A stretch of DNA of 33,970 nt, taken from NCBI GenBank assembly GCA_012517065.1, contig JAAYVR010000149.1, positions 1-33,970 of the forward strand, written 5' to 3'. This document shows, one piece after another, positions 12,491 to 33,668 of this stretch. This DNA comes from Verrucomicrobiota bacterium. GTDB lineage: Bacteria; Verrucomicrobiota; Verrucomicrobiia; Limisphaerales; J093. Under the pieces are notes generated by a model. It was not told the DNA's origin and ran no database searches. It saw nothing but the letters and a program-made list of their open reading frames with translations. How positions within the stretch are numbered: the first letter of the stretch is position 1; each line of letters opens with the position of its first letter. Position numbers and translations under genes: made by a program.

Positions 12491-12809
12491 AAGTGCGTAT
12501 GTGTAAACACTCTGAGATCCGGCGCCCTACGGGCGCCTGCAACGTCAGACAACCGGTGCAAAATACACCACCCAACCCGCGAATTGAATACCAAAGATTG
12601 TTTTCACTCGCCGGCAGTCGAACTTCGAGCCTGGCACCATATGCATATGCGTCTGCGACCGCAATGCGGCCGAACGAACTTTGTGCCTGGCACAATATCC
12701 ATCTGCGACCCCAAATTTCGAGCCTGGCACCATATGCATTTGTGACTCCAATGCGGCCGAGAATCCAAGGCTTCCATTTCGGTTCTGCATGCAACATTAT
12801 CGTGTCGAA
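12491..12809. other. Divergent intergenic region yebC / GH127
   Basis: This 319-nt region contains no credible gene. Its right half is filled by three REP-like units (12621-12768). The left half presumably holds the yebC promoter, but no convincing -35/-10 pair was found. The open frame that extends the GH127 gene upstream (from a TTG at 12681) runs through the repeats and yields repeat-derived peptide, so it is not taken as coding. Confidence 0.6.
12621..12768 (+). repeat. Array of three REP-like units
   Basis: There are three head-to-tail units. Units 1 (12623) and 3 (12717) share TTCGAGCCTGGCACCATATG followed by a variable step and then CAATGCGGCCGA. Unit 2 (12678) reads ACTTTGTGCCTGGCACAATA followed by CCATCTGCGACC. 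Unit 2 contains GTGCC-T-GGCAC, the perfectly symmetrical form of the core, suggesting that the GAGCC form seen elsewhere is a drifted version. The array sits directly upstream of the GH127 start. Confidence 0.75.
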
Positions 12810-15284
12810 ATGAACTCGACACGGATTGCTCATGCTTCATTGTTCGCCGCACTTATCATGGCAATTGGCGCGCGCAGTGCTGAACTCACAGTGGTCGAAA
12901 GACCCGAATCAGAACCTCCCAACACACATTATCCTGGTTCGCGTTCACCGCTGACACCGACCTCGCTCATAAAGCTTCCTGTCGGCACGGTCCGACCCGA
13001 CGGCTGGTTGCGGCGTCAGCTCGAGTTGCAAAGCCAGGGATTTCATGGGCACCTCGGTGAACTCAGCGCATTTCTCAAGAAGGACAACAACGCATGGTTA
13101 AGCGCAACCGGCGAAGGCGAGCACGGGTGGGAGGAGGTCCCTTACTGGCTGAAAGGTTTTGGTGATTGCGCCTATCTGCTGGGCGATTCCGAACAAACAG
13201 CAGAAGCTCGACTCTGGATCGAAGCCGTGCTGCGCAGCCAACGTGAGGATGGATACTTTGGACCGCGTCCCGGGCTCGGCAGTACTGTCAGCAGCACAAC
13301 CGGCAAGTATGACCTGTGGCCGAACATGATCATGCTGATGTGCCTGCAATCATACCACGAGGTCACCGGTGACAATCGCGTCCTCGATCTCATGCGCAGG
13401 TATTTCAAATGGGAACTGAGCGTGCCGGAAAACGAGTTTCTGCCGCCGTATTGGCAGAAAATACGCGCTGGCGACAATCTGTGGAGCGTTTACTGGCTTT
13501 ACAACCGAACCGGTGAACCGTGGCTACTTGACCTTGCAGAGAAGATTCACCGGCATACGGCAAACTTCACCGACGGCATTCCTGACTGGCACAACGTGAA
13601 CATGTCACAGGCGTTCGGCGGACCAACGTTTTTCTGGCTGCAATCCCGCGACCCAAAGCATCTCGTTGCTTCCGAGCGCAATTGGCAAACGATCCGACAA
13701 ATGTACGGCCAGGTGCCCGGCGGAATGTTCGGCGGCGATGAGAACTGCCGCCCGGGTTACACCGACCCGCGCCAGGCAATCGAAACCTGCGGCATGGTCG
13801 AAATGATGTTCTCTTGCGAACGTTTGTTGAACGTGACAGGAAACGCCGTCTGGGCGGACCGCACAGAAGACGTCGCCTTCAATTCCCTCCCCGCAGCGCT
13901 CACGGCTGACTTCAAAGCGCTGCGGTATTTGACCTCGCCGAATCTGATCCAATCCGATCGCGGCGACAAATGCCCCGGCGTGCAAAACTGCGGGCCAATG
14001 TTCCACTACGATCCGTACAGCCATCGGTGCTGCCAACACAACTTCGGTCACGGCTGGCCTTATCTCGTCGAACACGCATGGATGGCAACGCCGGGCAACG
14101 GCCTCGCGGCCGTCATTTACGGCCCAACAACAGTCGAGGCCATCGTCGCCAACGGCGAAAAAATCAGGATCGCCGAGCGCACACATTATCCTTTCGACGA
14201 AACCGTTGAACTGGCGTTCAGCGCGGAGAAACCGGTGCGGTTTCCGCTTTATTTGCGTGTGCCGGGTTGGTGCGCGAAACCAGCCGTCGCCATCAACGGC
14301 CAACTGCAGTCGGTATCCGCACGCCCGCTTCATTATCTGCGCATCGAGCGCGAATGGCGAAACGGCGATGTGCTGCGGTTGACGCTGCCGATGGAAGTAT
14401 CGCTCCGCACATGGACAAACAACCACAACAGTGTCTCGGTCGATCGCGGCCCGCTCACTTATTCGCTCAAGATCGGGGAGAAATGGGTTCGCGCCGGTGG
14501 CACGGATCGTTGGCCTGCATGGGAAGTCTATCCCACCACACCGTGGAACTACGGCTTGGCGCTGTCGGAAAACCCCGCGAGTTCATTTGAAGTGATCAAG
14601 AAACCATGGCCCGAAAACAATATGCCTTTCACGCCCGAAAACGCTCCTATCGAACTCCGCGCCAAGGGCCGTCGAATCATTGAATGGCAGGCTGACGAGC
14701 GCGATCTGGTCGGGCCACTCCAAGACAGCCCCGCTTTCTCTGATCAACCGCTCGAAAGCATCACACTGATCCCCATGGGCGCCGCGCGCCTCCGAATCGC
14801 GTCGTTCCCGGTCGCCAGCACTGCGGCCAACGCTCACCGCTGGATCGGACCGCCGCCTTCGCTCCCATTCAAAGCGACCGCGTCCCATTGCTGGCAGATG
14901 GACACTGTAAAAGCCCTCAAAGACCAACGATTGCCAAGCAACTCGAATGACCAAACCATCCCGCGTTTCACGTGGTGGGATCACAAGGGCACACGCGAGT
15001 GGGTCCAATACGAATTCGACGAAATCAAAAGAATCTCCGGAGTCGAAGTTTACTGGTTCGACGACACGCCCGGCGGCGGCTGCGCATTGCCGGAATCATG
15101 GACCGTCTTGTACATGGACGGCAGCGATTGGAAACCAGTCACGGGCGTGAAAATCCCCGCCATAGAACGCGACAAGTTCAATCGCGTCGAGTTCAACCCG
15201 ATTGCGACAAAAGGCCTGCGTCTGGACGTAAAACTCAAACCCAACTATTCGGCGGGCGTCCTGGAATGGAGAATAATTGAGTGA
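12810..15284 (+). CDS. GH127 beta-L-arabinofuranosidase-like secreted glycosidase (DUF1680)
   Basis: An 824-aa exported enzyme. Start chosen at ATG 12810, which gives a clean signal peptide (MNSTRIAHASLFAALIMAIGARSA). The catalytic core is the DUF1680/GH127 alpha/alpha barrel. Zinc- and catalysis-linked residues typical of Bifidobacterium HypBA1 are visible as E325-T-C327 (ETCGMVE) and H405-R-C407-C408 (HRCCQHN), in which a Cys acts as nucleophile. After about residue 540 come beta-rich domains. The last about 150 residues (KALKDQRLPSNSNDQ... to YSAGVLEWRIIE) look like a discoidin-type carbohydrate-binding domain. It probably releases L-arabinofuranose from plant glycans or glycoproteins. It overlaps the next gene in GTGA, implying co-translation. 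Confidence 0.92.
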   Translation: MNSTRIAHASLFAALIMAIGARSAELTVVERPESEPPNTHYPGSRSPLTPTSLIKLPVGTVRPDGWLRRQLELQSQGFHGHLGELSAFLKKDNNAWLSATGEGEHGWEEVPYWLKGFGDCAYLLGDSEQTAEARLWIEAVLRSQREDGYFGPRPGLGSTVSSTTGKYDLWPNMIMLMCLQSYHEVTGDNRVLDLMRRYFKWELSVPENEFLPPYWQKIRAGDNLWSVYWLYNRTGEPWLLDLAEKIHRHTANFTDGIPDWHNVNMSQAFGGPTFFWLQSRDPKHLVASERNWQTIRQMYGQVPGGMFGGDENCRPGYTDPRQAIETCGMVEMMFSCERLLNVTGNAVWADRTEDVAFNSLPAALTADFKALRYLTSPNLIQSDRGDKCPGVQNCGPMFHYDPYSHRCCQHNFGHGWPYLVEHAWMATPGNGLAAVIYGPTTVEAIVANGEKIRIAERTHYPFDETVELAFSAEKPVRFPLYLRVPGWCAKPAVAINGQLQSVSARPLHYLRIEREWRNGDVLRLTLPMEVSLRTWTNNHNSVSVDRGPLTYSLKIGEKWVRAGGTDRWPAWEVYPTTPWNYGLALSENPASSFEVIKKPWPENNMPFTPENAPIELRAKGRRIIEWQADERDLVGPLQDSPAFSDQPLESITLIPMGAARLRIASFPVASTAANAHRWIGPPPSLPFKATASHCWQMDTVKALKDQRLPSNSNDQTIPRFTWWDHKGTREWVQYEFDEIKRISGVEVYWFDDTPGGGCALPESWTVLYMDGSDWKPVTGVKIPAIERDKFNRVEFNPIATKGLRLDVKLKPNYSAGVLEWRIIE

Positions 15285-16507
15285 GACCAATTGACGCGCC
15301 ACGGACAGCAGTTGACCCGGGCAAAACATGGCGGGTCTTGTGGGCCTGCGCTGTCCTCCTGTGGTACAGCAGCATCGCTGCCGGGCAAACCTCGCCATCA
15401 CCCAGCCCGCCCACTGCCAACGCCCGTTTCACCGATGTGCCGGGGACCGTCATTGATCATTCGCCGGCGGCGTCGGGTGTGTACATCGGCTCACCTGCAT
15501 TGGCAGTTCTGCCAAATGGCGAATACATCGCGTCCCACGATCTCTTCGGCCCCGGCAGCGAGAAAAACCGAACTGACGTTTTCTCTTCGCAAGACAAGGG
15601 TCGGACATGGCGAAGAATCGCAACTGTCATCGGCCAATGGTGGTCGAGCTTGTTCTTTCATCGCGGTGCCTTGTACCTGATGGGGACAAGCCGCGAAAAC
15701 GGTTTTGCCGTTATCCGAAAATCAACCGACGGCGGTCGCACATGGACCGAACCTAAGGACGAAAACTCCGGGTTGCTGTTTGGCGACGGCCGATACCACT
15801 GCGCGCCCGTTCCAGTGGTGTCGCATGGTGGGCGTCTGTGGCGCGCGATGGAGGATGCCATGGGCCCGGACGGCTGGGGCAGGCATTTCAACTCGTTCAT
15901 GATGTCGGCCGAGGAAAACGCCGACCTGCTCCGCGCCGCTAACTGGCGATCCAGCAATCGCCTCGCAGGCAATCCCAACTGGCTTGACGGCGCGTTTGGC
16001 GGTTGGCTCGAGGGCAATGCAGTGGTCGCTCCCGATGGCACCGTCCTCAACATGCTCAGGGTCGATACCCCGGCCTGCCCAGAAAAAGCTGCCATGGTCA
16101 GAATCAGCCGCGACGGCCGCGAGGCCAGCTTCGATCCAGCCACGGGGTTCATCGATTTCCCCGGCGGCGCGAAAAAGTTCACAATCAGATTCGACCCCGA
16201 AAGCCGTCAATACTGGTGCATTGCCAGCATTGTAACTGAACCTTACAAGAGCAAAAGCAAACCAGCCAGTATCCGAAATACCCTCGCCCTGACATCCTCC
16301 CCGGACTTGCGGCGATGGGTCATCCGACGCGTTTTGCTCGAACACCCCGACACCCTCAAACATGGGTTTCAGTATGTTGATTGGCTCTTTGATGGCAGAG
16401 ACATAATTGCTGTCTGTCGGACTGCTTACGACGACGGATTGGGCGGCGCCCACAACTATCACGACGCAAATCTCCTCACCTTCCACAGGTTTGCTGATTT
16501 TCGCTGA
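15281..16507 (+). CDS. Secreted sialidase-like Asp-box propeller enzyme
   Basis: A 408-aa protein starting at GTG 15281, whose first base pairs sit inside the GH127 stop (GTGA overlap). A hydrophobic segment at residues 17-34 (WRVLWACAVLLWYSSIAA) acts as a signal peptide. Two Asp-box motifs, S-x-D-x-G-x-x-W, occur at about 103-110 (SQDKGRTW) and 148-155 (STDGGRTW), the mark of six-bladed sialidase/neuraminidase propellers. The arginine triad cannot be assigned by eye, so the substrate is open: sialic acid, a uronic acid, or a substituent on the arabinoside released by its partner. Translational coupling to GH127 suggests that they act on the same glycan. Confidence 0.85.
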   Translation: MRPIDAPRTAVDPGKTWRVLWACAVLLWYSSIAAGQTSPSPSPPTANARFTDVPGTVIDHSPAASGVYIGSPALAVLPNGEYIASHDLFGPGSEKNRTDVFSSQDKGRTWRRIATVIGQWWSSLFFHRGALYLMGTSRENGFAVIRKSTDGGRTWTEPKDENSGLLFGDGRYHCAPVPVVSHGGRLWRAMEDAMGPDGWGRHFNSFMMSAEENADLLRAANWRSSNRLAGNPNWLDGAFGGWLEGNAVVAPDGTVLNMLRVDTPACPEKAAMVRISRDGREASFDPATGFIDFPGGAKKFTIRFDPESRQYWCIASIVTEPYKSKSKPASIRNTLALTSSPDLRRWVIRRVLLEHPDTLKHGFQYVDWLFDGRDIIAVCRTAYDDGLGGAHNYHDANLLTFHRFADFR

Positions 16508-21747: not shown

Positions 21748-24582
21748 CTAACCACCCTGCTTCCCGTTAACCTGAAATGAATATCGCCCCGGCCCAAGCC
21801 GCACCGGCAGACGGTCGCCGGATACAGGCAAAAGGCTAACCCCACTTGCAGTCGAAATCGGCCGGCCGCCTTCTCTGACCGATTCTGCCCTTGTGGTGGG
21901 GAGGAAGAGTGTTGCTTTCGTGTTCGGTGGGACCACAACCCGCAGCTCCAAGTCGCCGTCCGTGTTGCGGCGCCAGTCGCTCTCGATTGGACCGTAGGGC
22001 GACACAAACCTGCATTTTACCCACTCCAAAGGCGTCGTATTCCAAATGCCGGGACGAATGACGAAGTCTTTGTAACCCTGGCCGCCACTGCCCGGCCGGA
22101 TGCCCGCAAGCCCCTCGACAAACCACGTCCCGACATGAAGGTATGAACTGTGGCACAGCGACAGTTTGCCTTCCCAATCCTCCCAAAGTGTCGTTGCGCC
22201 ATTCCGCAGCATGTGAATCCAGCCGGGATAATCCTCCTTGGTCACCATCTCGTACATCAGGTCCGGGCGCCCTTGCTCGATCAGGCACTTCACAATGAAC
22301 GACCCGCCAGTAATTCCGCCCCAAAAATGGCCTTTGCGGTTGACCAGAATCTCCTTCTCGAGTCGGTCCAGAACTGCTGTCCGAACTTCCTCCGGCGGCA
22401 CACCGGTCAACAGGGCAATCGCCAGATACGCCTGGTACCCGTTGACATATGAGTGTTCCGCCGGCACATAGAACTCGCGATGAATCGCCGAACGCACTTC
22501 GGCAGCGCGGCGGCGGTATTTCTCGGCGAGATCAGTTTGTCCCAAAGCGGCTGCAATTCGCGATGCTGTCTCGAGGTTGTAAACCCAGTAACAATTGTTG
22601 AAAAACAAAGTCTCGCGCGTGTCGCCGTTCACGCCTTCCGCGCCCGGCCACAACCAGTCGCCGAGAAAATCCCACTCACCGCCCCAACGCCTCAGAAGGT
22701 TGTCCTTTGCCTTGGTTTCGAGGAACGCCAGCCATTTCTCGATGGTTGGGAGGCTTTCCTCGAGGATTCTGCGGTCGCCATACCGCCTGAAAATCTCCCA
22801 AGGCAACGTCACACAATACCCGCTCCATCCCGGTCCGCCGCCGCCCCAATAGGTCGGCGCAGTGTACGGCAGGTTGCCAGGCTCGATCTTTTTGCCAGAT
22901 CCAGCCTCGCCTTCTTTGCGGCCTATGCCCCATGCGGCTTCTTTGCCTTGCACGTCGCGCCAGTCCTCGGCCCATTTGGTGTAAAATGCGCCGAGAGCGA
23001 AGTGATCGAGCGCGGTCTCGGTTGTCGCATGTGCGTCGCCGCCATAACCCATCCGTTCGCGCTGTGGGCAGTCCACCACGTACCCGCCCAGACTGAGGTT
23101 TTCAAAGGTCCAAACGACGGCGTCATGAACCCGGTTGAGCCACGTGTTAGAACATTCAAACTGCGTGACCGGGGCGTAATCGGTCCTGATCAACCACGCC
23201 TTGAAATCCTCGAGCCTTGGTTTTTGGCGTAGTCCTTCGATCTGAATCCATCGCCCGACGCCATAGTTAAACCGGTTTTTGAACACGCCCTTGCCGGATT
23301 GGCCGACAACGTAGTAACTGTGCAGGCGATGGGTCATCGGCTGCTCTTTGCGCTCGGACCACTTGAACTCGATCACGTCACCGGGCTGGCCTTCAATCTT
23401 TGCCTCGACCCAGCCGGCAAAGTTCTTTCCGAAATCGACGCGATAGACGCCCGGCTGCGGTTCCTCCACTTTGACGGGCCGCAGTTCACAGACGGGCCGG
23501 TTCGGTTCAACCTTTTGCGCGGACAGGATCAGCTTGGGACTGAAGACGGCCACCGGTTGCCACGACGAATCGTCCAGCGTTACCTCGCACCAGTTTGGAA
23601 TCTCGCGACTGGCGTCGTATCGTTCGCCGCCGAAGTTGGTGAAATCCCAGACGCCAATCAGTGTGTTCGGGCTCGGATGCCATTTCCACTGATCGTCGGT
23701 GGTAATCCGAGTTGACCTTCCATTGCCGAATTCAATGTCGGCCTGTGCAAGCACAATGGGCGCAGCAGGTTTGTCTGACGTCTGGTAAGGAGGAAAAATG
23801 GACCATGAGGTGCCCAGCCAAAGCCCGATCACATTTGTTCCGCGCCGGAGCAACTCGGCAATGTCATAGGTCACATAGCGCGCGCGTTTTGTGTGATCCG
23901 TTGTGCATGGGGCGAGCACGCCATCACCCACACGCTTTCCGTTCACGTAAAGTTCATGGTATCCCACCGACGCCACATGAATGATTGCGCGTTTGGGGGC
24001 TGCATCAAGCACGAAGACCCGCCGCAACCATGGGTCAGGCATCGTGTTGTCCGGCGGCGGCCAACCTTGTTTTCGAACAAACGATTGCCCTGTGCCGATC
24101 CATTTTGCCGACCAGTCCGCAGGATCGAGTATGCCGGCCGTCCAACGCGCCGGTTTGCTCCATGGGCTGAGCGCGCCGCGTTCATCACGTACGCGGACTT
24201 TCCAGTGGCATTCCTGATTCGATCTGAGCGGGTTGCCTCCATAGACCACATGCTGCGAATCGTCGGACTCGACCATGCCCGAATCCCAAAGGTCTCCCTT
24301 GTCACGTCGCAGAATCTCAGGACTGCTGGCGACCAAAATCCTGTAACCCGTCTGGCGCTGGCCTCTGGCCGTCGGTTGTGTGGGGACCAAAACCCAGCTC
24401 AACCGAGGCTTGGCTACGTCAATCCCGATCGGATTCTCCAAGTACTCGCACTTCAGATTTGTCGGCGCAACCGATGCCGCGTTGGCCACTGCAAACAGAA
24501 CCGCAACTGTCACGGCCAACAGCGTGTGTACGGCCCGGCTTCGGCACGAATTCCCGGTGCGCAGACTTGACTTGCCTGACAA
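21748..24582 (-). CDS. Secreted alpha-L-rhamnosidase (GH78)
   Basis: A roughly 944-aa exported glycosidase removing terminal alpha-L-rhamnose from plant glycans or glycosides. Domain order fits bacterial GH78: an N-terminal fibronectin-like domain (PTNLKCEYLENPIGIDVAKPRLSW), a carbohydrate-binding/lectin-like domain (about 140-420), the alpha/alpha-barrel catalytic domain with CPQRERMGYGGDAHATTETAL and GGEWDFLGDWLWPGAEG, and a C-terminal beta domain. The frame is open to 24738 but has no ATG before the signal segment. I prefer TTG 24582, preceded by AGAGAG, giving MSGKSSLRTGNSCRSRAVHT and then the hydrophobic LLAVTVAVLFAVANA. It is downstream of the WD40 gene on the same strand, 210 nt away. 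Confidence 0.92.
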   Translation of the reverse strand: MSGKSSLRTGNSCRSRAVHTLLAVTVAVLFAVANAASVAPTNLKCEYLENPIGIDVAKPRLSWVLVPTQPTARGQRQTGYRILVASSPEILRRDKGDLWDSGMVESDDSQHVVYGGNPLRSNQECHWKVRVRDERGALSPWSKPARWTAGILDPADWSAKWIGTGQSFVRKQGWPPPDNTMPDPWLRRVFVLDAAPKRAIIHVASVGYHELYVNGKRVGDGVLAPCTTDHTKRARYVTYDIAELLRRGTNVIGLWLGTSWSIFPPYQTSDKPAAPIVLAQADIEFGNGRSTRITTDDQWKWHPSPNTLIGVWDFTNFGGERYDASREIPNWCEVTLDDSSWQPVAVFSPKLILSAQKVEPNRPVCELRPVKVEEPQPGVYRVDFGKNFAGWVEAKIEGQPGDVIEFKWSERKEQPMTHRLHSYYVVGQSGKGVFKNRFNYGVGRWIQIEGLRQKPRLEDFKAWLIRTDYAPVTQFECSNTWLNRVHDAVVWTFENLSLGGYVVDCPQRERMGYGGDAHATTETALDHFALGAFYTKWAEDWRDVQGKEAAWGIGRKEGEAGSGKKIEPGNLPYTAPTYWGGGGPGWSGYCVTLPWEIFRRYGDRRILEESLPTIEKWLAFLETKAKDNLLRRWGGEWDFLGDWLWPGAEGVNGDTRETLFFNNCYWVYNLETASRIAAALGQTDLAEKYRRRAAEVRSAIHREFYVPAEHSYVNGYQAYLAIALLTGVPPEEVRTAVLDRLEKEILVNRKGHFWGGITGGSFIVKCLIEQGRPDLMYEMVTKEDYPGWIHMLRNGATTLWEDWEGKLSLCHSSYLHVGTWFVEGLAGIRPGSGGQGYKDFVIRPGIWNTTPLEWVKCRFVSPYGPIESDWRRNTDGDLELRVVVPPNTKATLFLPTTRAESVREGGRPISTASGVSLLPVSGDRLPVRLGPGRYSFQVNGKQGG

Positions 24583-24792
24583 AGGAGAGCCGATCTCTCT
24601 GCACTGCGACTGTGCTGTTACGGCCGGCTTTATGGAGACGTTTGATTCCGGATTGGAACTGTTTTCCTCGCAATAGGTGGGTCTGTCCAAAAGACGGATA
24701 GGGCGCGCTGTTTTCACGCCGCAAGTCTGCCACACCAAAACCCGATTGAAAAGCTTGTGTGTATCCCGGGGGTGGCCGGTGAGATTGCCAAG

Positions 24793-27783
24793 CTAAGGCT
24801 GGCGGACTCGATAGAATCGCTTCTGAACCTCGCCGAGTGTGTCTTGCACCAGTGTTGTATCCCCCGTCCTTGCGTAGGTTCCCAATGGCCGCCAAACCCC
24901 AAGGTCATCCGAAATCTCAACAGTGAATCTGTCTCCGCCGGGACAGAAAACGGCCATCTCGATGTGTCCCGGCACGATCATCTCTATGCGATCGACACGC
25001 ACCATCTGAGGTGGCTGCACCGGGTTGCGGGCAACGGCGAACGTGCCGTTATCGCCGCCGTACGCGAAGAGCTTCCCGTCCGTAGAAAATGCCACTGCAG
25101 TCGAACCCGATGTTTCCTGGTCGAACACCGCGGCAACACCCCATGACCCAGTTGACCAAAGGCGTACTGTGTTATCATCCCCGCACGAAAGCAGCACGCC
25201 GCCATCGGGAGATACAGCAATGCTTCTGACCCTTGCCACGTGCCCTGTCAGCGAGTGCAACAGGCTCCCATCGGCAGCGTTCCACTCTTTTATCAATCCG
25301 TCGTCGCCGGCGGACAACAGTTTACTACCAGTTGGCCCGAAAACGAGCGATGTGACCTCCGCCCGGTGTGCCGTCCACGACCGAACCTCAGTCCCGTCTT
25401 CGACTTTCCAAAGCCGAACCTGAGCTTCCTGGCCCCCGGATGCAATTAGAGTCCCATCCCGTGAAAACGCCACTGAAAACACCGCTCCCGTCAGCCCCGT
25501 AATCTTCCGAACGAGACTCCAATCGCTTCGCCGCCACAAACAAACCGTCCTGTCCGTCCCGGCCGAAGCGAGCAACGACCCGTCCGCCGAGAACGCGGTT
25601 GTGAAAACGTAACCGGAATGCCCTGCAAGGACCTTGATGGGCTCGCCCGTTTCGGGGTCCCAGATTCGCACGGTGCCGTCACCTCCGCCTGAGGCCAACA
25701 CTTTTCCGTCCGGCGAGTACGCGATCGAGAACACGTACTGGGCATGTCCAACAAGCGTCCGCTTGAGCGCGCCGGTCGCACTCTCCCAAAGTTTGATCGT
25801 GCCATCATCGCTGCATGACGCCAGGACGCTGTTGTCAGGCGAAAAGGCAAGGCCCTCGCACCAACCCGTGTGCCGGAAGATTTCGAGAGGTTGCATGCCG
25901 CTGCCGGTTGCCCATGTGGCAAGAAGCGTTCCGTCAGGCCGCCAAAGCCGCACTGTGAAATCATCACTGCCCGAGATGATTCGCCGGCCGTCAGGTGAAA
26001 AAACTGCAGACCGCACGTAATCCGTGTGCCCTTCGAGAGTGCTGACCGCCGCCCCGTCCGACACACGCCAAACCCGGACAGTTCCATCGTCGCTGGCCGA
26101 GACCAACAGCGTGCCGTCGGGTGAAAAAGACACCGACTCGACCACGTCAACATGGCCAGTCAAAGTCCGGATCACCGCGCCGGTCGCAGGGTTCCACAGG
26201 CGGATTGTCCGATCCTTGCTGCACGATGCCAAAACAGACCCGTCCGGCGCAAATGCAACACCGGTAACTGCACCTGTGTGGCCGCTGAGCGTTCTCGCCA
26301 GTGAGCCGTCTGACGCATTCCACAGATTGATCGTGGTGTCTTCGCTTCCCGAGGCGAGAAGCGTGCCGTTCTTGTTGAAAGCGACCGCGTTAACAGAACC
26401 TGCGTGCCCGCTCAAAGTCCGCACCAGATTGCCGTTCGAAACCTGCCACAGCTTCAAGGTCTTGTCGTCGCTCGCCGAAGCCAGCAAAGCCCCGTCTGGC
26501 GAGAAAGCCACCGACTCGACCCAATCCGTATGTCCCTTGAGAATCCGCACCATGGTGCCGTCCGAGGCGCGCCACAGCCTGATTTCGTTGTCGTCGTCGC
26601 CGGCGGCAAGCAGCGTGCCATCGGGCGAAAACGCGACACACTCGACGTCGTTTGAATGTATGAAACTGCGGATCATGCGGCCGCGGGCGACATCCCACAA
26701 AATCACAACGTCATCCCAGCCTGCTGAAGCCGCCAAACTTCCGTCCGGTGAAAACGTCACTTCCGCAACTGTGTCTTCATGGCCGCCCACGGAAAAATCG
26801 TCAGGCACTTCCCAGAGCTTGACAGTCATGTCGTCGGACCCTGACACGAGCCATTGGCCGTCCTGTGAGAAAGCAAGGCCGGGAATACCGCCGTGGTGCC
26901 CGGTGATTGTCGCAAGAGGCTCGCCATCTGCGACACGCCACACAATGATGCTCTCATCGAACTCGCCCCCGCCGCCGGCGATATACTGCCCATCCGCACT
27001 GAAGGCAACTGACAACACCCAATCCCCGTGCCCCGTCAAGGTTCTAACCAGCACGCCGGTGGCCACGTCCCACAACCTGACCTCGTTGTTGTCATCGCCA
27101 GCGGCCAACAAACTGCCATCGGGCGAGAACGCCACACATTCAACGTCGTTCGTATGCGTCAGCGTGCGCGCCAAAGTTCCCGCCGGGACATTCCAAACCT
27201 TGACCGTTCCATCCCAACTGCCCGAAGCGAGATAAGCGCTGTTTGGAGAAAATGCGACTCTGGAAACCACGTCGTTATGAGCTGCTATCTTCTGCAGGGG
27301 AGTCCAATCAGATACCTGCCACAGGATCACCGTGGAATCGTCGCTCCCGCTGGCAAGGTATTTGCCGTCGGGCGAGAATGCCACTCCGCGAACCCAATCG
27401 GTGTGTCCTTCGAGTGTCGCTAGCAATTCACCGTCACTGGCACGCCATATCCGCACCTCATTGTTGTCGTCACCGGCAGCTATCATGCTCCCGTCGGGTG
27501 AAAACGCTACGCTCTCGACGTCTTCAAGATGGGCAAAGCTGCGCACAAGATTGCCCGTTGGAAGTGACCAAAGCTTAACTGTGTCATCAAAGCTCGAGGA
27601 TGCGATGAGTTTGCTATCGGGCGAAAACGCAACAGCGGTTACACTGTCAGAATGGGCGCCTTTCCTCCACACAATGTCGGGACTGCCCTGCCCAACAGCC
27701 GAGCCGTGCAGATAACAAATCGACAGACAGGACAAAACCAGCGCCAGCCCCGGCATGTTCCGCCGCAATATAAGAATGTTCAT
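24793..27783 (-). CDS. Secreted giant WD40 protein, 21 blades
   Basis: A 996-aa protein with a signal peptide (MNILILRRNMPGLALVLSCLSICYLHGSAVGQ). About 21 consecutive WD40 repeats run from residue about 42 to 900, each with the pattern H-x(4)-V-x(2)-V-A-F-S-P-D-G and ending in LW. Twenty-one equals three seven-bladed propellers. The last about 70 residues (VDRIEMIVPGHIEMAVFCPG... to QKRFYRVRQP) form a small beta domain with the FYRVR ending frequent in exported verrucomicrobial proteins. Blades 2, 5 and 9 share GDDNNEVR or GDDDNEIR and are followed by DWV-type blades, showing duplication of multi-blade blocks. No enzymatic domain is seen; it is probably a secreted or surface scaffold. Confidence 0.93.
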   Translation of the reverse strand: MNILILRRNMPGLALVLSCLSICYLHGSAVGQGSPDIVWRKGAHSDSVTAVAFSPDSKLIASSSFDDTVKLWSLPTGNLVRSFAHLEDVESVAFSPDGSMIAAGDDNNEVRIWRASDGELLATLEGHTDWVRGVAFSPDGKYLASGSDDSTVILWQVSDWTPLQKIAAHNDVVSRVAFSPNSAYLASGSWDGTVKVWNVPAGTLARTLTHTNDVECVAFSPDGSLLAAGDDNNEVRLWDVATGVLVRTLTGHGDWVLSVAFSADGQYIAGGGGEFDESIIVWRVADGEPLATITGHHGGIPGLAFSQDGQWLVSGSDDMTVKLWEVPDDFSVGGHEDTVAEVTFSPDGSLAASAGWDDVVILWDVARGRMIRSFIHSNDVECVAFSPDGTLLAAGDDDNEIRLWRASDGTMVRILKGHTDWVESVAFSPDGALLASASDDKTLKLWQVSNGNLVRTLSGHAGSVNAVAFNKNGTLLASGSEDTTINLWNASDGSLARTLSGHTGAVTGVAFAPDGSVLASCSKDRTIRLWNPATGAVIRTLTGHVDVVESVSFSPDGTLLVSASDDGTVRVWRVSDGAAVSTLEGHTDYVRSAVFSPDGRRIISGSDDFTVRLWRPDGTLLATWATGSGMQPLEIFRHTGWCEGLAFSPDNSVLASCSDDGTIKLWESATGALKRTLVGHAQYVFSIAYSPDGKVLASGGGDGTVRIWDPETGEPIKVLAGHSGYVFTTAFSADGSLLASAGTDRTVCLWRRSDWSLVRKITGLTGAVFSVAFSRDGTLIASGGQEAQVRLWKVEDGTEVRSWTAHRAEVTSLVFGPTGSKLLSAGDDGLIKEWNAADGSLLHSLTGHVARVRSIAVSPDGGVLLSCGDDNTVRLWSTGSWGVAAVFDQETSGSTAVAFSTDGKLFAYGGDNGTFAVARNPVQPPQMVRVDRIEMIVPGHIEMAVFCPGGDRFTVEISDDLGVWRPLGTYARTGDTTLVQDTLGEVQKRFYRVRQP

Positions 27784-28268: not shown

Positions 28269-29555
28269 TCAAACGCGCAGAAAAACCTTCTTTCGGTAGA
28301 GAAAGTTCACGAACCAGAACATCAACAGCAGCCCTACAATGCTCACGAGCATGTCACCTGTCCCCTTCAGCACGTGCTCGTTGAGGTAGATCTGAACATC
28401 CCCGCCGGCCAGACGCGCAGCCAGTTTCCTGAACCCCCCAAGGAAATTGCTCGCAAGATATACGGTGATCGAGTTCATCCCGATCCAAACAAATGGCTGG
28501 CACCACCACTGAACCTTCAACACGTCCACGACAAGATAGAACACCCCAAGCAAAACCGCGCTGTACCCCCCGGCAACCAGCACATAAGATGACGTCCAGA
28601 TTTTCTTGATCACCGGAAACAGAGGATTCCACAACCACCCAAGCGCCGCCGCGCCAACACCGCAGGCAATTAGCAGCGTCACTTTCCGCGATTGGCTCAC
28701 CGTGGAATCGTTCAGCAAAAGCCCGGCAAACACGCCCAACAGGCATGTCACCACGGCCGGCAACGTGCTCAGTATGCCCTCCGGGTCATAAAAAACGTCG
28801 TATTTTCTTCCCGGGAGATATTTGAAATCGAAATGATTCGCCAAATTCAGCCCTTGTTCGAATTTGCCGGTTACGCGATTTGTGGTGGCATTGAACAGCT
28901 TCACCGCTGTTGCCCACGCCGCGCTGTCCTTGATCGCTGACGGATTTCCCGGCTCTCTTAACAGTGCCGCACCCTTCGAGTCGCCCAACCGTTCCGCAAG
29001 CGCTGCCAAATGCTGCTTCTCGAGCCGAATGTCGCGCACCGGAATCAGCGCAAGCGCTGCCCAGTAACCCAGCAGTATTGCCAGAGCGACAACCGCCAGC
29101 GCACGCGGTTTCAAGAAACAATACAAGAGCCCGGCAAACAGGTACGCCAATGCGATCCGATTCAATACGCCCATGAGCCTAATATCCGGCCACTGACTGC
29201 TCAGGCCGCCGTAGTAAATGATCCCAAGGATAAAAAGCACCACGCCACGGCGGATCACCCGCTTCACCGCTGCTCCACGCCCCGCTTGCGCAATTATCCG
29301 ATTCAGCGAAAAAACCAACGACACCCCCGCCATGAAGACGAACAACGGAAAAATCAAATCGTAAAACCTGAACCCTTCCCACTCGACGTGTTCGAGCTGC
29401 CGGGCAAGAAACTGGACCGGCTTCGAAGGGCTCATCCGATTCAACGCCCAAACAAGCGACTCCGCCCCTATGATCCAGAACATGTCGAACCCGCGGAGCG
29501 CGTCAAGGGACATCAACCGTTGGGGAGCAGAGGTGGAATCAGAGGTTTCACTCAT
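28269..29555 (-). CDS. DUF5009 / heparan-alpha-glucosaminide N-acetyltransferase-like membrane protein
   Basis: A 428-aa multi-pass membrane protein related to HGSNAT and bacterial NagX. The signature RLMSLDALRGFDMFWIIGAE at the N-terminus, followed by HVEWEGFRFYDLIFPLFVFMAGVSL, is characteristic of this acyltransferase-3-like family. About ten hydrophobic segments follow, ending in WFVNFLYRKKVF. The frame opens at 29597, but ATG 29555 (MSETSDSTSAPQRLMSLDAL) is the better start, because the upstream extension contains prolines and no start context. The family is thought to acetylate amino or hydroxyl groups of sugars across the membrane. It is divergent from the Gfo/Idh/MocA gene across a REP element. 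Confidence 0.85.
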   Translation of the reverse strand: MSETSDSTSAPQRLMSLDALRGFDMFWIIGAESLVWALNRMSPSKPVQFLARQLEHVEWEGFRFYDLIFPLFVFMAGVSLVFSLNRIIAQAGRGAAVKRVIRRGVVLFILGIIYYGGLSSQWPDIRLMGVLNRIALAYLFAGLLYCFLKPRALAVVALAILLGYWAALALIPVRDIRLEKQHLAALAERLGDSKGAALLREPGNPSAIKDSAAWATAVKLFNATTNRVTGKFEQGLNLANHFDFKYLPGRKYDVFYDPEGILSTLPAVVTCLLGVFAGLLLNDSTVSQSRKVTLLIACGVGAAALGWLWNPLFPVIKKIWTSSYVLVAGGYSAVLLGVFYLVVDVLKVQWWCQPFVWIGMNSITVYLASNFLGGFRKLAARLAGGDVQIYLNEHVLKGTGDMLVSIVGLLLMFWFVNFLYRKKVFLRV

Positions 29556-29606
29556 GGTAACAGGTGGCCGAACATCTATGGGAAACCACGGCCCCAATCA
29601 AGAAAA

Positions 29607-29763: not shown

Positions 29764-31092
29764 ATGAACGGCGCAAACAAAATGACACTCACCCGGCGTG
29801 ATTTCCTTCAACGAACAGCAATTGCGGCCGGCGCAGTCGGATTGCCCTGCATCATCCCGTCTTCTGCCCTTGGCCGCGGAGGATCGGTCGCGCCCAGCGA
29901 ACGAATCGTCATGGGTGGCATCGGCATGGGCGGCCGGGGTTCATACGATCTGGGCTGGATATTGACAGAACCGGATGTGCAGTGGGTCGCAGTCTGCGAC
30001 CCCGTCAAGGGCAGGCGCGAAGCCGCAAAGAATGTTGTGGACAAGAAATATGGTAACACCGATTGCGCCGCTTATTCCGACATGCGCCAGTTGCTGTCGG
30101 AACGGACAGACGTGGACGCGGTGTTGATTGCGACTGGCGATCGCTGGCACGCGCTTGCCTCGGTGCTCGCAATGCGCGCAGGCAAAGACGTTTATTGCGA
30201 AAAACCTGCCTGTTTGACCATGGCCGAGGGCCAGATGGTCGTTGAAACCGCCCGCAGATACGGCCGTGTTTATCAAACCGGCGCTCAACGCCTCAGCGAA
30301 GCAAATCATGTCTTTGCGATTGAAATGGCCCGGACAGGCCGGCTTGGCAAGGTGCACACCGTCTATGCCGATGTCCGCTGGCGGGATGGAATGCGCCACG
30401 ACTGGCTCCCCGCTGAGCCGGAGCCGCCAAAGAGCGAAGTTGATTGGGACTGCTGGCTTGGCCCGTGTCCATGGCGTCCCTACAACAGCGCCTATGTGAA
30501 TGGTGGAGGCTGGTATCACTTCTACGATTTCGCGACCGACGTCGCAATGTGGGGAGCGCACACCGTTGCACAGGCCCTGGCCGGACTTGACATGTCCGAC
30601 GTTGACACGATCGAGTTCGAATACGCCGGGCCCGACGCAACCATGGTGACGCATTTGTCAAATGGCGTTAAGCTCGTGCTGTTTCGTGTGCCTGGCTCAG
30701 TGTGGGAACCCTGCGAATACTGGCATGGCGCATGTGGCGAACGATTCGACGGCCCGGAAGGTTGGGCCGCGGCCGCTGACGGTTATTCGCGGCCGGATGT
30801 GTCGTCCCCGTCGCTGTTGCGTGAATACAGAAAAGTTCTCGCCGAGTACGTGGCTCGAACGCAGCGGCCGTTGAACCACGTGCGCGATTTCCTCGATTGC
30901 GTCAGATCACGGAGACCCACCGTCGCCAACCCCGAGGTGATGTACAGATCAATGATCATCTGCCTCGCAGCGGACATTTGCGAGCAACTGAAACGCAACC
31001 TGAAATTCGATCTGCGGAAAGCCGAGTTTATCGGCGACCCTCAGGCCAACCGCATGCGCTCACGCGCAATGCGTCCACCCTACACATTCTGA
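29764..31092 (+). CDS. Tat-exported Gfo/Idh/MocA family oxidoreductase
   Basis: A 442-aa NAD(P)-dependent sugar oxidoreductase. The N-terminus carries a twin-arginine signal (LTRRDFLQRTAIAAGAVGLP, R11-R12) with an ATG at 29764 (29782 possible). The Rossmann motif IVMGGIGMGGRG follows, and the family catalytic-loop motif EKP is at residues 146-148 (DVYCEKPACLTMAEGQ). The C-terminal half (WDCWLGPCPWRPYNSAYVNGGGWYHFYDFATDVAMWGAH) matches the PVC-type Gfo/Idh/MocA proteins. It probably oxidises the C3 hydroxyl of glycosides in the periplasm to 3-keto sugars, which the next gene product would cleave (inference). It lies 80 nt upstream of the DUF1080 gene on the same strand. Confidence 0.9.
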   Translation: MNGANKMTLTRRDFLQRTAIAAGAVGLPCIIPSSALGRGGSVAPSERIVMGGIGMGGRGSYDLGWILTEPDVQWVAVCDPVKGRREAAKNVVDKKYGNTDCAAYSDMRQLLSERTDVDAVLIATGDRWHALASVLAMRAGKDVYCEKPACLTMAEGQMVVETARRYGRVYQTGAQRLSEANHVFAIEMARTGRLGKVHTVYADVRWRDGMRHDWLPAEPEPPKSEVDWDCWLGPCPWRPYNSAYVNGGGWYHFYDFATDVAMWGAHTVAQALAGLDMSDVDTIEFEYAGPDATMVTHLSNGVKLVLFRVPGSVWEPCEYWHGACGERFDGPEGWAAAADGYSRPDVSSPSLLREYRKVLAEYVARTQRPLNHVRDFLDCVRSRRPTVANPEVMYRSMIICLAADICEQLKRNLKFDLRKAEFIGDPQANRMRSRAMRPPYTF

Positions 31093-31172
31093 GCCTTGAA
31101 TCACATCGAACCAGGAAATCTCATCGGCCTCCCTCAGATATACCGATACATCCAAATCCGGGCTAACACACC

Positions 31173-33668
31173 ATGAAAAAACTTCTAATTGCAGTCTTGA
31201 TCCTGACGTTTAACGCGTTCGCGCAGGAAGACAAAGCTCTGGCTGTTCTCAGGTCAGATGCTTCGTTGAAAGAAAAGGCCGAGGCATGCCGCGAGCTGGC
31301 GCGCGTGGGCACCGGCAAATCTGTGCCTACACTCGCTCAGATGCTTGCTGACGAGTCGTTGTCGCAAATGGCCCGGCACGCACTCGAACAAATACCGGAC
31401 CCATCTGCAAACGCCGCGCTACGCGATTCGCTTGGCAAGGTCAAGGGGCGGCTGCTGATGGGTGTGATCCACAGTCTTGGCGTCAGGAAAGACACCGAAG
31501 CCGTGCAGCCATTGAGCCGGTTCTTGGCAGATCCGGACCCGGATGTGGCTGATGCGGCCGCGCGTGCATTGGGCAGCATTGGAGCACCATCCGCGCCAGT
31601 GCTCGAAAAAGCTCTCACGCAAGGCGCCACCGCCAACAAATCGGCCATCATGGAAGGATTATTCAGGTGCGCGGAGTCAATGTCTGCCAGCGAAGCTGCC
31701 AGAATCTACGACAAGATTCGGGATTTGCCCGATCTGCCGCACCAGGTGCGTGTCGCAGCTTTGCGGGGTCTGGTTAGGTGCCGCGGCGCCGAAACCGTCC
31801 CTTTGCTCATCGAAACACTGAAAACCGAATCTTACGTGTCAGCAGCCAATGCGATAAGGATGCTGGCTGAAATACCCGGACAGGAAGTGACCAAAGTGCT
31901 GGTCGCAGAACTCGGCAGAGCAAAACCAGATGTGCAAACCCTGCTGCTGCATGCGCTCGGTAATCGGGGTGATTGGACCGTGAGCGCAGCGTTGGTGCCG
32001 TTGGCAAAGGATGGACCCGCAAACGTGCGCGTGGCGGCAATTCGCAGCCTCGTTCAACTCGGCGCGCCAGCTTCAATTCCTGTGTTGGTCGATCTGGCCA
32101 AGGACCCGGCACCGGACGTGTCGAACGCAGCCCTGGCAGGGCTCACAGGCTTTCCAACCAAAGAGGCCGACGAAGCAATGCTGGCTCTCCTTGAAGAGAA
32201 AAACACAAAGCTGCGTCTTTCGGCCATCGACGCCGTTGCTCAGCGCCGCGTGAAAGCAGCAATACCGGCATTGATCAAGATCGCCGTCGAAGCTGACACC
32301 GATGTCGCAGGTCCGAGTTTCCAGGCGCTTGGCGAATTGGCCGAAGAAAACGACGTCCCTTCGGTGGTCGGCGCGCTGGTTCAAACCCGGGCCATTGCCG
32401 CCGCCGAAACCGCTTTGGCCGCAATCTGCGCCAGACAATCTGATCGGACAGGCTGTGCGAATTCGGTGTTGAGCGGCCTCGCGAAGGCACAGAGCGAACC
32501 GAAACTCGCGCTGCTGCGCGTCCTTGGAACCATCGGCGGCACGAAAGCGCTCGATGCAATCCGCGCAGCCGCGCAGGAATCCGACGCCGCAGTCCGAGAA
32601 ACGGCGCTTCGTGTGCTGTGCGACTGGCCGACGGCGGACGTTCTGCCTGACCTCGAGCAAATCGCGAAGGCTTCTGATGACACAAAGTTCAAGATACTCG
32701 CCCGTCGGGCTCAGCTTCGGTTGATCCCCACTCAAAACGCACCCGATACCCAGAAGGTCTCACAATTGAAAGAAATCATGGCCTCGGTCGAACGGCAGGA
32801 GGAAAAACGGCTCGCATTGGCTGCGCTGGCCAACATTCACACTGAAGACTCGCTCCAAGTGGTGAACCAATACCTCGCCGCCGAGGGACTGAACGAAGAA
32901 GCCGGCGACGCTGCCGTCTCAATCGCCGAACAAATCGTCGCAAGCCATCCAGCCACGGTCGCTGCCGCAATCAAAATGGTCAGAACCAACAATAAGAAGC
33001 TCGCCGACCGCGCCCAGCAGGTGCTGACACGCGCCGAAGCCGCAGCGCGTGAACAGGGTTTCAAGCCAATTTTCAATGGCAGAGACCTCTCCGGCTGGGA
33101 CGGAAAACCCGGTTGGTGGAAAGTCGAAGATGGCGCTCTCACAGCCGAAAGCACCCCAGACAAACCATGCAAAGCACCCAACTACCTGATCTGGCGCGGC
33201 GGGCAACCCGCAGACTTCGAATTGCTGGCAGATTTCAAACTCAGCACCGAAGGCAATTCAGGTATTCAAATCAGGTCCGAGGAACGTCCTGACTGGGACA
33301 CGTTTGGTTACCAAGCCGACATGACCGGGAACGGCGAGTTGATCGGTTTCATTTATCATCACAGCCGTGGTCTGGTTGCCGGTCGCGGCGAAAAAGTAGT
33401 GTTCGCTCCCGATGGAACGAAAACGATTGAACGAATCGGTGACGCAGCCGAACTGCTCAAGCACTTCAGGCAAGGTGACTGGAACACGTACCGCATCGTG
33501 TGCCGCGGCAACGATATTGCATTGTACTTGAACGGTGTGCTGATGTGTCAGGTCACCGATCACTCAACTCAGGCGGCTGCAAAGGGAATCATCGCGCTCC
33601 AAATGCATCCCGGACCGCCCATGAAAGTGCAGTTCAAAAACATTCGCCTCAGGGACTTGTCAAGGTAG
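31173..33668 (+). CDS. Secreted HEAT-repeat + DUF1080 (3-keto-glycoside hydrolase-like) protein
   Basis: An 831-aa protein with a signal peptide (MKKLLIAVLILTFNAFA). Residues about 20-620 are tandem HEAT repeats: helix pairs such as LRSDASLKEKAEACRELARV, PDPDVADAAARALGSIG and PANVRVAAIRSLVQLGAPAS. Residues 630-831 form a DUF1080 domain (GFKPIFNGRDLSGWDGKPGW... GNSGIQIRS... LYLNGVLMCQVTDHS... GIIALQMHPGPPMKVQFKNIRLRDL), a lectin-like jelly roll now linked to hydrolysis of 3-keto-disaccharides. The HEAT array probably acts as a scaffold. Following the Tat oxidoreductase by 80 nt, it fits as the second step of a 3-keto-glycoside pathway. The start ATG 31173 matches the signal peptide. Confidence 0.9.
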   Translation: MKKLLIAVLILTFNAFAQEDKALAVLRSDASLKEKAEACRELARVGTGKSVPTLAQMLADESLSQMARHALEQIPDPSANAALRDSLGKVKGRLLMGVIHSLGVRKDTEAVQPLSRFLADPDPDVADAAARALGSIGAPSAPVLEKALTQGATANKSAIMEGLFRCAESMSASEAARIYDKIRDLPDLPHQVRVAALRGLVRCRGAETVPLLIETLKTESYVSAANAIRMLAEIPGQEVTKVLVAELGRAKPDVQTLLLHALGNRGDWTVSAALVPLAKDGPANVRVAAIRSLVQLGAPASIPVLVDLAKDPAPDVSNAALAGLTGFPTKEADEAMLALLEEKNTKLRLSAIDAVAQRRVKAAIPALIKIAVEADTDVAGPSFQALGELAEENDVPSVVGALVQTRAIAAAETALAAICARQSDRTGCANSVLSGLAKAQSEPKLALLRVLGTIGGTKALDAIRAAAQESDAAVRETALRVLCDWPTADVLPDLEQIAKASDDTKFKILARRAQLRLIPTQNAPDTQKVSQLKEIMASVERQEEKRLALAALANIHTEDSLQVVNQYLAAEGLNEEAGDAAVSIAEQIVASHPATVAAAIKMVRTNNKKLADRAQQVLTRAEAAAREQGFKPIFNGRDLSGWDGKPGWWKVEDGALTAESTPDKPCKAPNYLIWRGGQPADFELLADFKLSTEGNSGIQIRSEERPDWDTFGYQADMTGNGELIGFIYHHSRGLVAGRGEKVVFAPDGTKTIERIGDAAELLKHFRQGDWNTYRIVCRGNDIALYLNGVLMCQVTDHSTQAAAKGIIALQMHPGPPMKVQFKNIRLRDLSR

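Follow-up and report, generated by a model that had tools for sequence, protein, structure and literature searches.

A Tat-type Gfo/Idh/MocA oxidoreductase paired with a HEAT-DUF1080 protein in Verrucomicrobiota: a candidate periplasmic 3-keto-glycoside module

In a 33,970-nucleotide stretch of DNA from a Verrucomicrobiota bacterium (contig JAAYVR010000149.1 of assembly GCA_012517065.1; hereafter the window), a gene for a Gfo/Idh/MocA oxidoreductase with a twin-arginine translocation (Tat) signal is followed by a gene for a secreted protein that joins a superhelix of HEAT repeats to a C-terminal DUF1080 domain, and this arrangement recurs in other bacteria of the Planctomycetota-Verrucomicrobiota-Chlamydiota (PVC) group. 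We give an even chance to the proposal that the pair forms a periplasmic 3-keto-glycoside module in which the HEAT part docks the dehydrogenase near its eliminase/hydratase. Such a module would have three parts: a sugar 3-dehydrogenase of the Gfo/Idh/MocA family exported by the Tat route, a superhelix of HEAT repeats that is secreted, and a DUF1080 domain acting as 3-keto-glycoside eliminase/hydratase, which in the window is joined to the superhelix. The oxidoreductase (P0001), tightly holding NAD(P), would oxidise C3 of a glycoside, the DUF1080 domain would carry out elimination and hydration, and the 3-keto-sugar would be reduced by P0001 or by a paired Gfo dehydrogenase, so that no free periplasmic cofactor would be needed. 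The HEAT arm would keep the docked dehydrogenase near the DUF1080 site, and the reactive intermediate would be handed on. We infer the enzymatic activity, the docking, the channelling and the substrate of this module.

The gene pair and its fusions in PVC bacteria

The sequences and models show the parts of the proposed module and the folds they have, and also that these parts are linked and repeatedly fused. P0001 (442 aa) is encoded at 29764..31092 and the HEAT-DUF1080 protein P0002 (831 aa) at 31173..33668, both on the + strand and 80 bp apart. The initial annotation had described a Tat-type Gfo/Idh/MocA gene followed by a secreted protein with a C-terminal DUF1080 domain, and both open reading frames (ORFs) and their domains were recovered, with coordinates unchanged. 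The pair is not a chance arrangement, because a congeneric genome carries it as well (97% and 90% identity) and eight further PVC loci (L167-L169, L171-L174 and L183) have a Gfo gene followed by a gene for a full-length HEAT-DUF1080 protein, at 46-57% identity over the best segment. The possibility that the fusion was a one-off of the genus was rejected, as full-length relatives were found in Kiritimatiellae, Akkermansiaceae, Lentisphaerae, Phycisphaerae and a Sumerlaeota bin. Across the phylum, 5/387 genomes gave a match at a strict E-value of 1e-90, a cut that undercounts plain HEAT pairs.

The two domains were found in several arrangements. The HEAT-DUF1080 order is seen in the window and at L166-L169, L171-L174, L183, L077 and L078, the reversed DUF1080-HEAT order at L185 and L192, and separate adjoining HEAT and DUF1080 genes at L170, L175, L178 and L188. 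In the named genomes, Gfo genes of the P0001 type (type A) are followed by HEAT-DUF1080 (L166-L169), by DUF1080 alone (L177, L179, L180, L184), by HEAT alone (L175, L178, L188) or by the reversed fusion (L185). Judged from the HEAT tree, only the reversed order requires a fusion event of its own. Fusions of DUF1080 to ThuA occur with either domain first (L209, L211, L216), and others join DUF1080 to AP_endonuc_2 (L011), to GH27 and to cytochrome c. In the L011 protein, encoded in the source genome (37424-38791 of its contig), a DUF1080 domain sharing 44% identity with the one in P0002 is joined to an AP_endonuc_2 TIM barrel in a frame of 511 aa; its product may be a single-chain eliminase/hydratase pair.

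A scan of the named genomes gave 76 loci. Same-strand chains were counted by DUF1080 identity, with flanks partly cut by contig ends. Where the DUF1080 domain shared 60% identity or more with the one in P0002, the chain included a Gfo gene at 26/32 loci and a HEAT gene at 18/32; at 45-60% identity the figures were 7/18 and 1/18, and below 45% they were 1/26 and 0/26. The link between DUF1080 and Gfo genes drawn in the initial annotation is borne out by the first of these groups.

The oxidoreductase and the DUF1080 domain

P0001 carries the Tat motif TRRDFL (residues RRDFL at 29794..29808, +), recognised by TIGR01409 at 24.9 bits (cut-off 16.7), and a pattern search found an RR/RK-type motif in 124/130 of its Gfo relatives. 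The Pfam profiles PF01408 (2.1e-16; 61.1 bits, cut-off 24) and PF19051 (1.6e-15) matched, and both the NAD-binding domain and the EKP lysine of the Gfo/Idh/MocA family are present. The predicted model of P0001 (predicted local distance difference test score, pLDDT, of 92.9) had as its best PDB matches the Alistipes glucoside 3-dehydrogenase AL3, free and with trehalose (8tdf, 2.3e-20; 8tdh, 3.9e-20), and AL3 was also the top PDB match by sequence profile (4.9e-40). In an alignment of 130 Gfo proteins, Lys147 of the EKP motif (30202..30204, +) and His266 (30559..30561, +) were invariant (130/130).

The DUF1080 domain of P0002 occupies residues 629-827 (33057..33653, +) and matched PF06439 over profile positions 1-187 (1.4e-35; 123.5 bits against a gathering cut-off of 26.8). 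Its modelled jelly roll matched 4jqt (BT3469; Z 22.9) and the eliminase/hydratases 9fbe (with 2-hydroxy-3-keto-glucal; Z 20.2), 8tda (BT2157; 19.1) and 8rr2 (18.9), with a root mean square deviation of 2.0-2.2 over 171-172 residues for these three. The domain had been labelled a hydrolase in the initial annotation; the titles of its solved relatives read eliminase/hydratase or 2-hydroxy-3-keto-glucal hydratase, and 'hydrolase' describes only the net reaction. We aligned 94 DUF1080 domains collected for their resemblance to P0002, a set whose conservation therefore describes the subfamily. Four polar residues conserved in this set are all present in P0002: Arg701 (93/94; 33273..33275, +), Gln714 (94/94) and Asp716 (93/94) of the GYQAD motif (residues 712-716; 33306..33320, +), and His812 of the QxHxGPPM motif (94/94; 33606..33608, +). 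Gln714 and His812 correspond to the glutamine of the E-Y/F-Q motif and the histidine of the Q-x-H motif of BT2157-type relatives.

Several observations weigh against the transfer of a 3-keto-glycoside activity to this pair. Four residues before the invariant histidine of P0001 stands Met262 (30547..30549, +), a methionine in 27/27 members of its clade, whereas 73/103 of the other Gfo proteins have Asp or Glu; AL3 (8tdf) has Asp at this position, and the Asp-x-x-x-His pattern is absent from P0001. The roles given to this acid and to the catalytic histidine are those of their counterparts in inositol dehydrogenase. The P0001 clade, with 27 members, was monophyletic (support 0.891). The NCBIfam equivalog model of the BT_2158 glycoside 3-dehydrogenase (NF058561) gave P0001 134.2 bits against a cut-off of 750, over residues 10-278 only, and no NCBIfam model was matched by the DUF1080 domain of P0002. 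Within that domain, Gly712 is found in 94/94 members of the subfamily at the position where the BT2157-type E-Y/F-Q-x-L/I-D motif has Glu, as seen in 8rr2, 3nmb, 3h3l, 3hbk and the second domain of 4jqt; by this difference the domain lies outside the BT2157 subfamily. The DUF1080 fold also matched the binding module CBM66 (Z 17.9). Both P0001 and the DUF1080 domain have the look of functional representatives of their folds, and each carries a change specific to its clade; with Met262 and Gly712 in place the activity of characterised relatives is not transferable to them. The 3-keto-glycoside pathway proposed in the initial annotation is partly supported, by AL3 as the nearest solved relative of P0001, by the eliminase/hydratase fold of DUF1080 and by the linkage to Gfo, and needs correction at Gly712 and Met262. 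Of the candidate active-site residues, on which that annotation had made the DUF1080 assignment depend, the polar residues of the subfamily were kept, and the BT2157-type Glu, which may or may not be catalytic, was replaced.

Given the methionine of its clade, P0001 may no longer be a dehydrogenase at all, and instead be a regulatory or substrate-binding subunit or a GH109-like NAD-using hydrolase, with oxidation left to paired Gfo proteins of two other types, B and C. Types B and C were present in 11/11 of the genomes with type A among 40 relatives (p 6e-7, indicative only, as the genomes are related). A larger cluster in Akkermansiaceae and Kiritimatiellae consists of Gfo type C, HEAT-DUF1080 or HEAT and DUF1080, Gfo type B, HEAT and a third Gfo. 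At L170, L171 and L173 this third Gfo is type A, so that all three types share one cluster there; at L174 and L183 a Gfo of some other type takes its place. The invariance of Lys147 and His266, the intact NAD-binding fold and the 76-82% identity of P0001 orthologues across genera and families, which fits an active enzyme, count against the loss of dehydrogenase function, and we regard it as distinctly unlikely.

The glycine of the DUF1080 subfamily invites a different objection, namely that the domain is here a carbohydrate-binding module and that what the HEAT-Gfo pair acts on is not a 3-keto-glycoside. The CBM66 match would fit this, as would the PA14-like, FG-GAP or F5/8C tails that other HEAT partners of Gfo bear in the same place. 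Among 83 HEAT proteins of relatives, most end with repeats, 3 have DUF1080 (L071, L077, L078), 22 have a tail with the motif SDDGxKVWLNG, 3 have a longer FG-GAP tail and one is a ThuA-HEAT-F5/8C protein. The SDDGxKVWLNG tails, of about 190 aa, were considered as divergent DUF1080 domains, and this was rejected since the profiles are unrelated (hhalign probability 3.9); their counterpart is the N-terminal region of the longer FG-GAP tails (matches at E about 1e-64 to 1e-69), where Pfam sees a weak PA14. Against a binding module stand the retention of Arg701, Gln714, Asp716, His812 and other residues in 93-94 of 94 diverged domains, and the fusion of DUF1080 to the enzymes ThuA and AP_endonuc_2. 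Binding modules seldom keep so many polar residues. We consider the binding-module explanation improbable, and prefer an eliminase/hydratase role for the domain.

Regarding the tails themselves, the HEAT genes at L145, L153 and L159, partners of Gfo genes, encode proteins of about 1200 aa with the SDDGxKVWLNG domain and FG-GAP repeats (checked in L145). The same domain of about 190 aa ends some 22 other HEAT proteins, and Pfam gave no name to it in those scanned.

The HEAT superhelix and its linkage to Gfo genes

P0002 begins with the leader MKKLLIAVLILTFNAFAQ, which was judged by eye to be a Sec-type signal sequence (residues 1-18; 31173..31226, +). The HEAT superhelix follows at residues 19-627 (31227..33053, +), with about 18 HEAT-type repeats (HEAT_2, 4.6e-44), and in the AlphaFold model of residues 19-831 (mean pLDDT 94.1) it forms 37 helices ahead of the beta jelly roll. 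Conserved positions were found far apart along the superhelix: among the HEAT matches listed, Cys39 (88/91), Arg105 (87/91), Arg358 (90/91) and Trp485 (82/91) are near-invariant, and Gln255 is conserved as well. Cys39 and Arg105 belong, with Arg68 and Asp107, to a patch of conserved residues in the N-terminal portion of the superhelix. A cytochrome-type HEAT protein was rejected, P0002 having no CxxCH, and so was a defence function, the PADLOC matches being to generic HEAT models.

When 40 related genomes were searched with P0002, at least 91 HEAT matches were obtained, and Gfo matches were found independently with P0001. Directly downstream of a Gfo match and on the same strand lay 78 of the 91 listed HEAT genes. 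Among listed Gfo matches, those paired with HEAT numbered 2/2 at 90% identity to P0001 or above, 0/9 at 70-90%, 17/18 at 55-70%, 22/23 at 45-55%, 33/42 at 40-45% and 4/50 below that. When 6 of the 13 unpaired HEAT genes were inspected, three had a more divergent Gfo directly upstream (L161, L163, L070), one had a Gfo directly downstream (L164) and two had none (L162, L165). In the source genome (5.26 Mb, 298 contigs), with 67 matches to P0001 and 20 PF06439 stretches, of which 19 are above the cut-off, 7/11 HEAT_2 ORFs lie directly downstream of a Gfo match (probability about 4e-11, assuming 4,700 genes).

The initial annotation had assigned no known role to the HEAT scaffold. That view gives way here: genes of this Gfo family usually have HEAT next to them, whether DUF1080 is present or not, so that the HEAT part is probably functional rather than an idle appendage. 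Its constant place behind Gfo, irrespective of DUF1080, and its fusion to DUF1080 and to ThuA make a docking scaffold the role that we favour. The ThuA family has a part in 3-keto-trehalose metabolism.

A simpler role would be that the HEAT part only displays or spaces the domain it carries, for instance by attaching to components of the cell surface or envelope, while Gfo and DUF1080 are independent diffusible enzymes and the gene order reflects co-regulation. Standalone DUF1080 genes beside Gfo orthologues that have no HEAT (L073, L177, L179, L180, L184) are consistent with this, and 10/27 members of the Gfo clade have neither HEAT nor DUF1080 as the next downstream gene. However, HEAT without DUF1080 still tracks Gfo, plain HEAT being the next gene for 60/130 Gfo entries, and the near-invariant Cys39, Arg358 and Trp485 along the helix would be needless in a spacer. 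We therefore find this role unlikely.

The distance matrices of Gfo and HEAT proteins correlate (r 0.825; 1000 shuffles reached at most 0.09). This correlation reflects paired inheritance, not contact, and it is what would be expected if the link were an accident of shared ancestry, with the pair spread by duplication as a unit and no functional dependence between its members. Both fusion orders are hard to obtain by descent alone, though, and one Gfo clade has been re-paired with HEAT proteins of different lineages, while HEAT has also been paired with ThuA; shared ancestry as the whole explanation is, in our estimate, highly improbable.

Docking itself has points to answer. The same distance correlation would arise from joint duplication of the gene pair, and the HEAT tree can be read as several fusions or as a single ancient joining of HEAT to DUF1080 that was afterwards split. 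The placement of the DUF1080 domain relative to the helix is uncertain in the model of P0002 (predicted template modelling score 0.61). Among the 40 relatives, 9/9 Gfo orthologues 76-82% identical to P0001 have no HEAT neighbour, so this Gfo apparently works without HEAT or with a HEAT protein encoded elsewhere.

A broader form of the docking proposal, which we hold at somewhat less than an even chance, is that periplasmic HEAT superhelices form a dedicated family, one that in PVC bacteria gives Tat-exported sugar dehydrogenases a modular arm on which to dock. Every type of dehydrogenase would be served by a HEAT partner of its own, with second-step 3-keto-sugar enzymes (DUF1080, ThuA) or glycan-binding domains on either end. 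The resulting periplasmic metabolon would break glycosides through oxidation, elimination, hydration and reduction. Should the HEAT arm link the dehydrogenase to the eliminase/hydratase, it would be a scaffold for enzyme assembly in the periplasm. Many HEAT genes of Verrucomicrobiota and related bacteria that now lack annotation would then be accounted for, and the three Gfo types and their HEAT lineages would offer testable pairs for deglycosylation chemistry.

Two HEAT proteins carry other enzyme domains. The ThuA-HEAT-F5/8C protein, of 1191 aa (L164:1047-4619), is encoded directly upstream of a Gfo gene. In the source genome, a sulfatase fused to HEAT repeats (L067:2143-4110, -) directly follows a Gfo-HEAT pair and may represent another enzyme on a HEAT arm.

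Known pathways and the surroundings of the pair

Only recently has the 3-keto-glycoside route joined the classical glycosidases as another way to break glycosides, and it involves the handling of unstable keto intermediates and of cofactor outside the cytoplasm. The BT2156-BT2159 type of pathway was reportedly defined in a paper in Nature in 2024. The route starts with C3 oxidation; beta-elimination then yields a 2-hydroxy-3-keto-glycal, which is hydrated, and a Gfo oxidoreductase carries out the reduction (PMC10628242). BT2158 is a periplasmic glycoside 3-dehydrogenase (PMC11300592), and BT2156-58 are annotated as isomerase/epimerase, DUF1080 and Gfo (PMC10434189). BT2156-BT2159 and Alistipes AL1-AL3, both of Bacteroidota, likewise combine an exported Gfo/Idh/MocA glycoside 3-dehydrogenase with a DUF1080 protein, and P0001 finds its best PDB matches among their proteins, as the DUF1080 domain finds some of its best. 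The window pair differs from them in its HEAT arm and in that its DUF1080 subfamily and Gfo clade each depart at one conserved position. Gene sets like BT2156-BT2159 have an AP_endonuc_2 gene beside Gfo and DUF1080; none is seen adjoining the window pair, whose downstream side lies beyond the contig end. PF01261 had no match on the contig, which ends 302 bp past the P0002 stop and leaves the genes downstream of P0002 outside view, and 37 matches elsewhere in the genome, one of them in the L011 fusion to a related DUF1080. The related clusters L170 and L171 do include an AP_endonuc_2 gene.

Three other systems share some of these features, as far as the accessible portions of the cited papers describe them. 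Caulobacter LacABC with the DUF1080 protein CCNA_01705, a putative 3'-ketolactose hydrolase, shares periplasmic C3 oxidation followed by a DUF1080 protein, but its oxidase belongs to a family other than Gfo and the system has no HEAT part (PMC9007349). The Agrobacterium AtOGE/AtHYD/Gfo system shares oxidation, beta-elimination, hydration and Gfo reduction, whereas its eliminase and hydratase are described as putative sugar phosphate isomerases, not DUF1080 proteins, and again there is no HEAT part (PMC10628242). Thermogutta THTE_1561, a DUF1080 endo-xanthanase of 23.7 kDa, is likewise a DUF1080 protein that acts on a glycan, and is reported as a direct endo-glucanase without prior oxidation (PMC5673643, PMC10881899). 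A literature search, with subscription journals mostly outside its reach, found no description of the Gfo-HEAT pairing, which is weak evidence of novelty; in the literature searched, HEAT repeat was mentioned together with MocA and Idh, or with DUF1080, only in a transcriptome table, as unrelated terms. The 3-keto-glycoside pathway is already known, and on this weak evidence its HEAT-linked form appears to be new.

Upstream of the pair and divergent from the P0001 gene is a gene for a NagX-like membrane acyltransferase (28269-29597; 296.8 bits, below the model cut-off of 480). A scan for promoters and terminators gave signals no higher than in shuffled sequence. Inferring a substrate from the genes of the window was rejected, as the GH78, GH127 and NagX-like genes lie outside the transcription unit of the pair. 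The GH78 alpha-L-rhamnosidase gene (21748-24738) is on the opposite strand from the pair with two other genes between, and it adjoins a gene for a 996-aa protein (24793-27783, -) with about 20 very regular WD40 repeats (WD40, 9.9e-225). Farther upstream, a gene for a GH127 beta-L-arabinofuranosidase-like protein (12681-15284, +) overlaps by 4 bp a gene for a weak BNR-repeat protein (15281-16507, +), and these two may form a plant-glycan unit.

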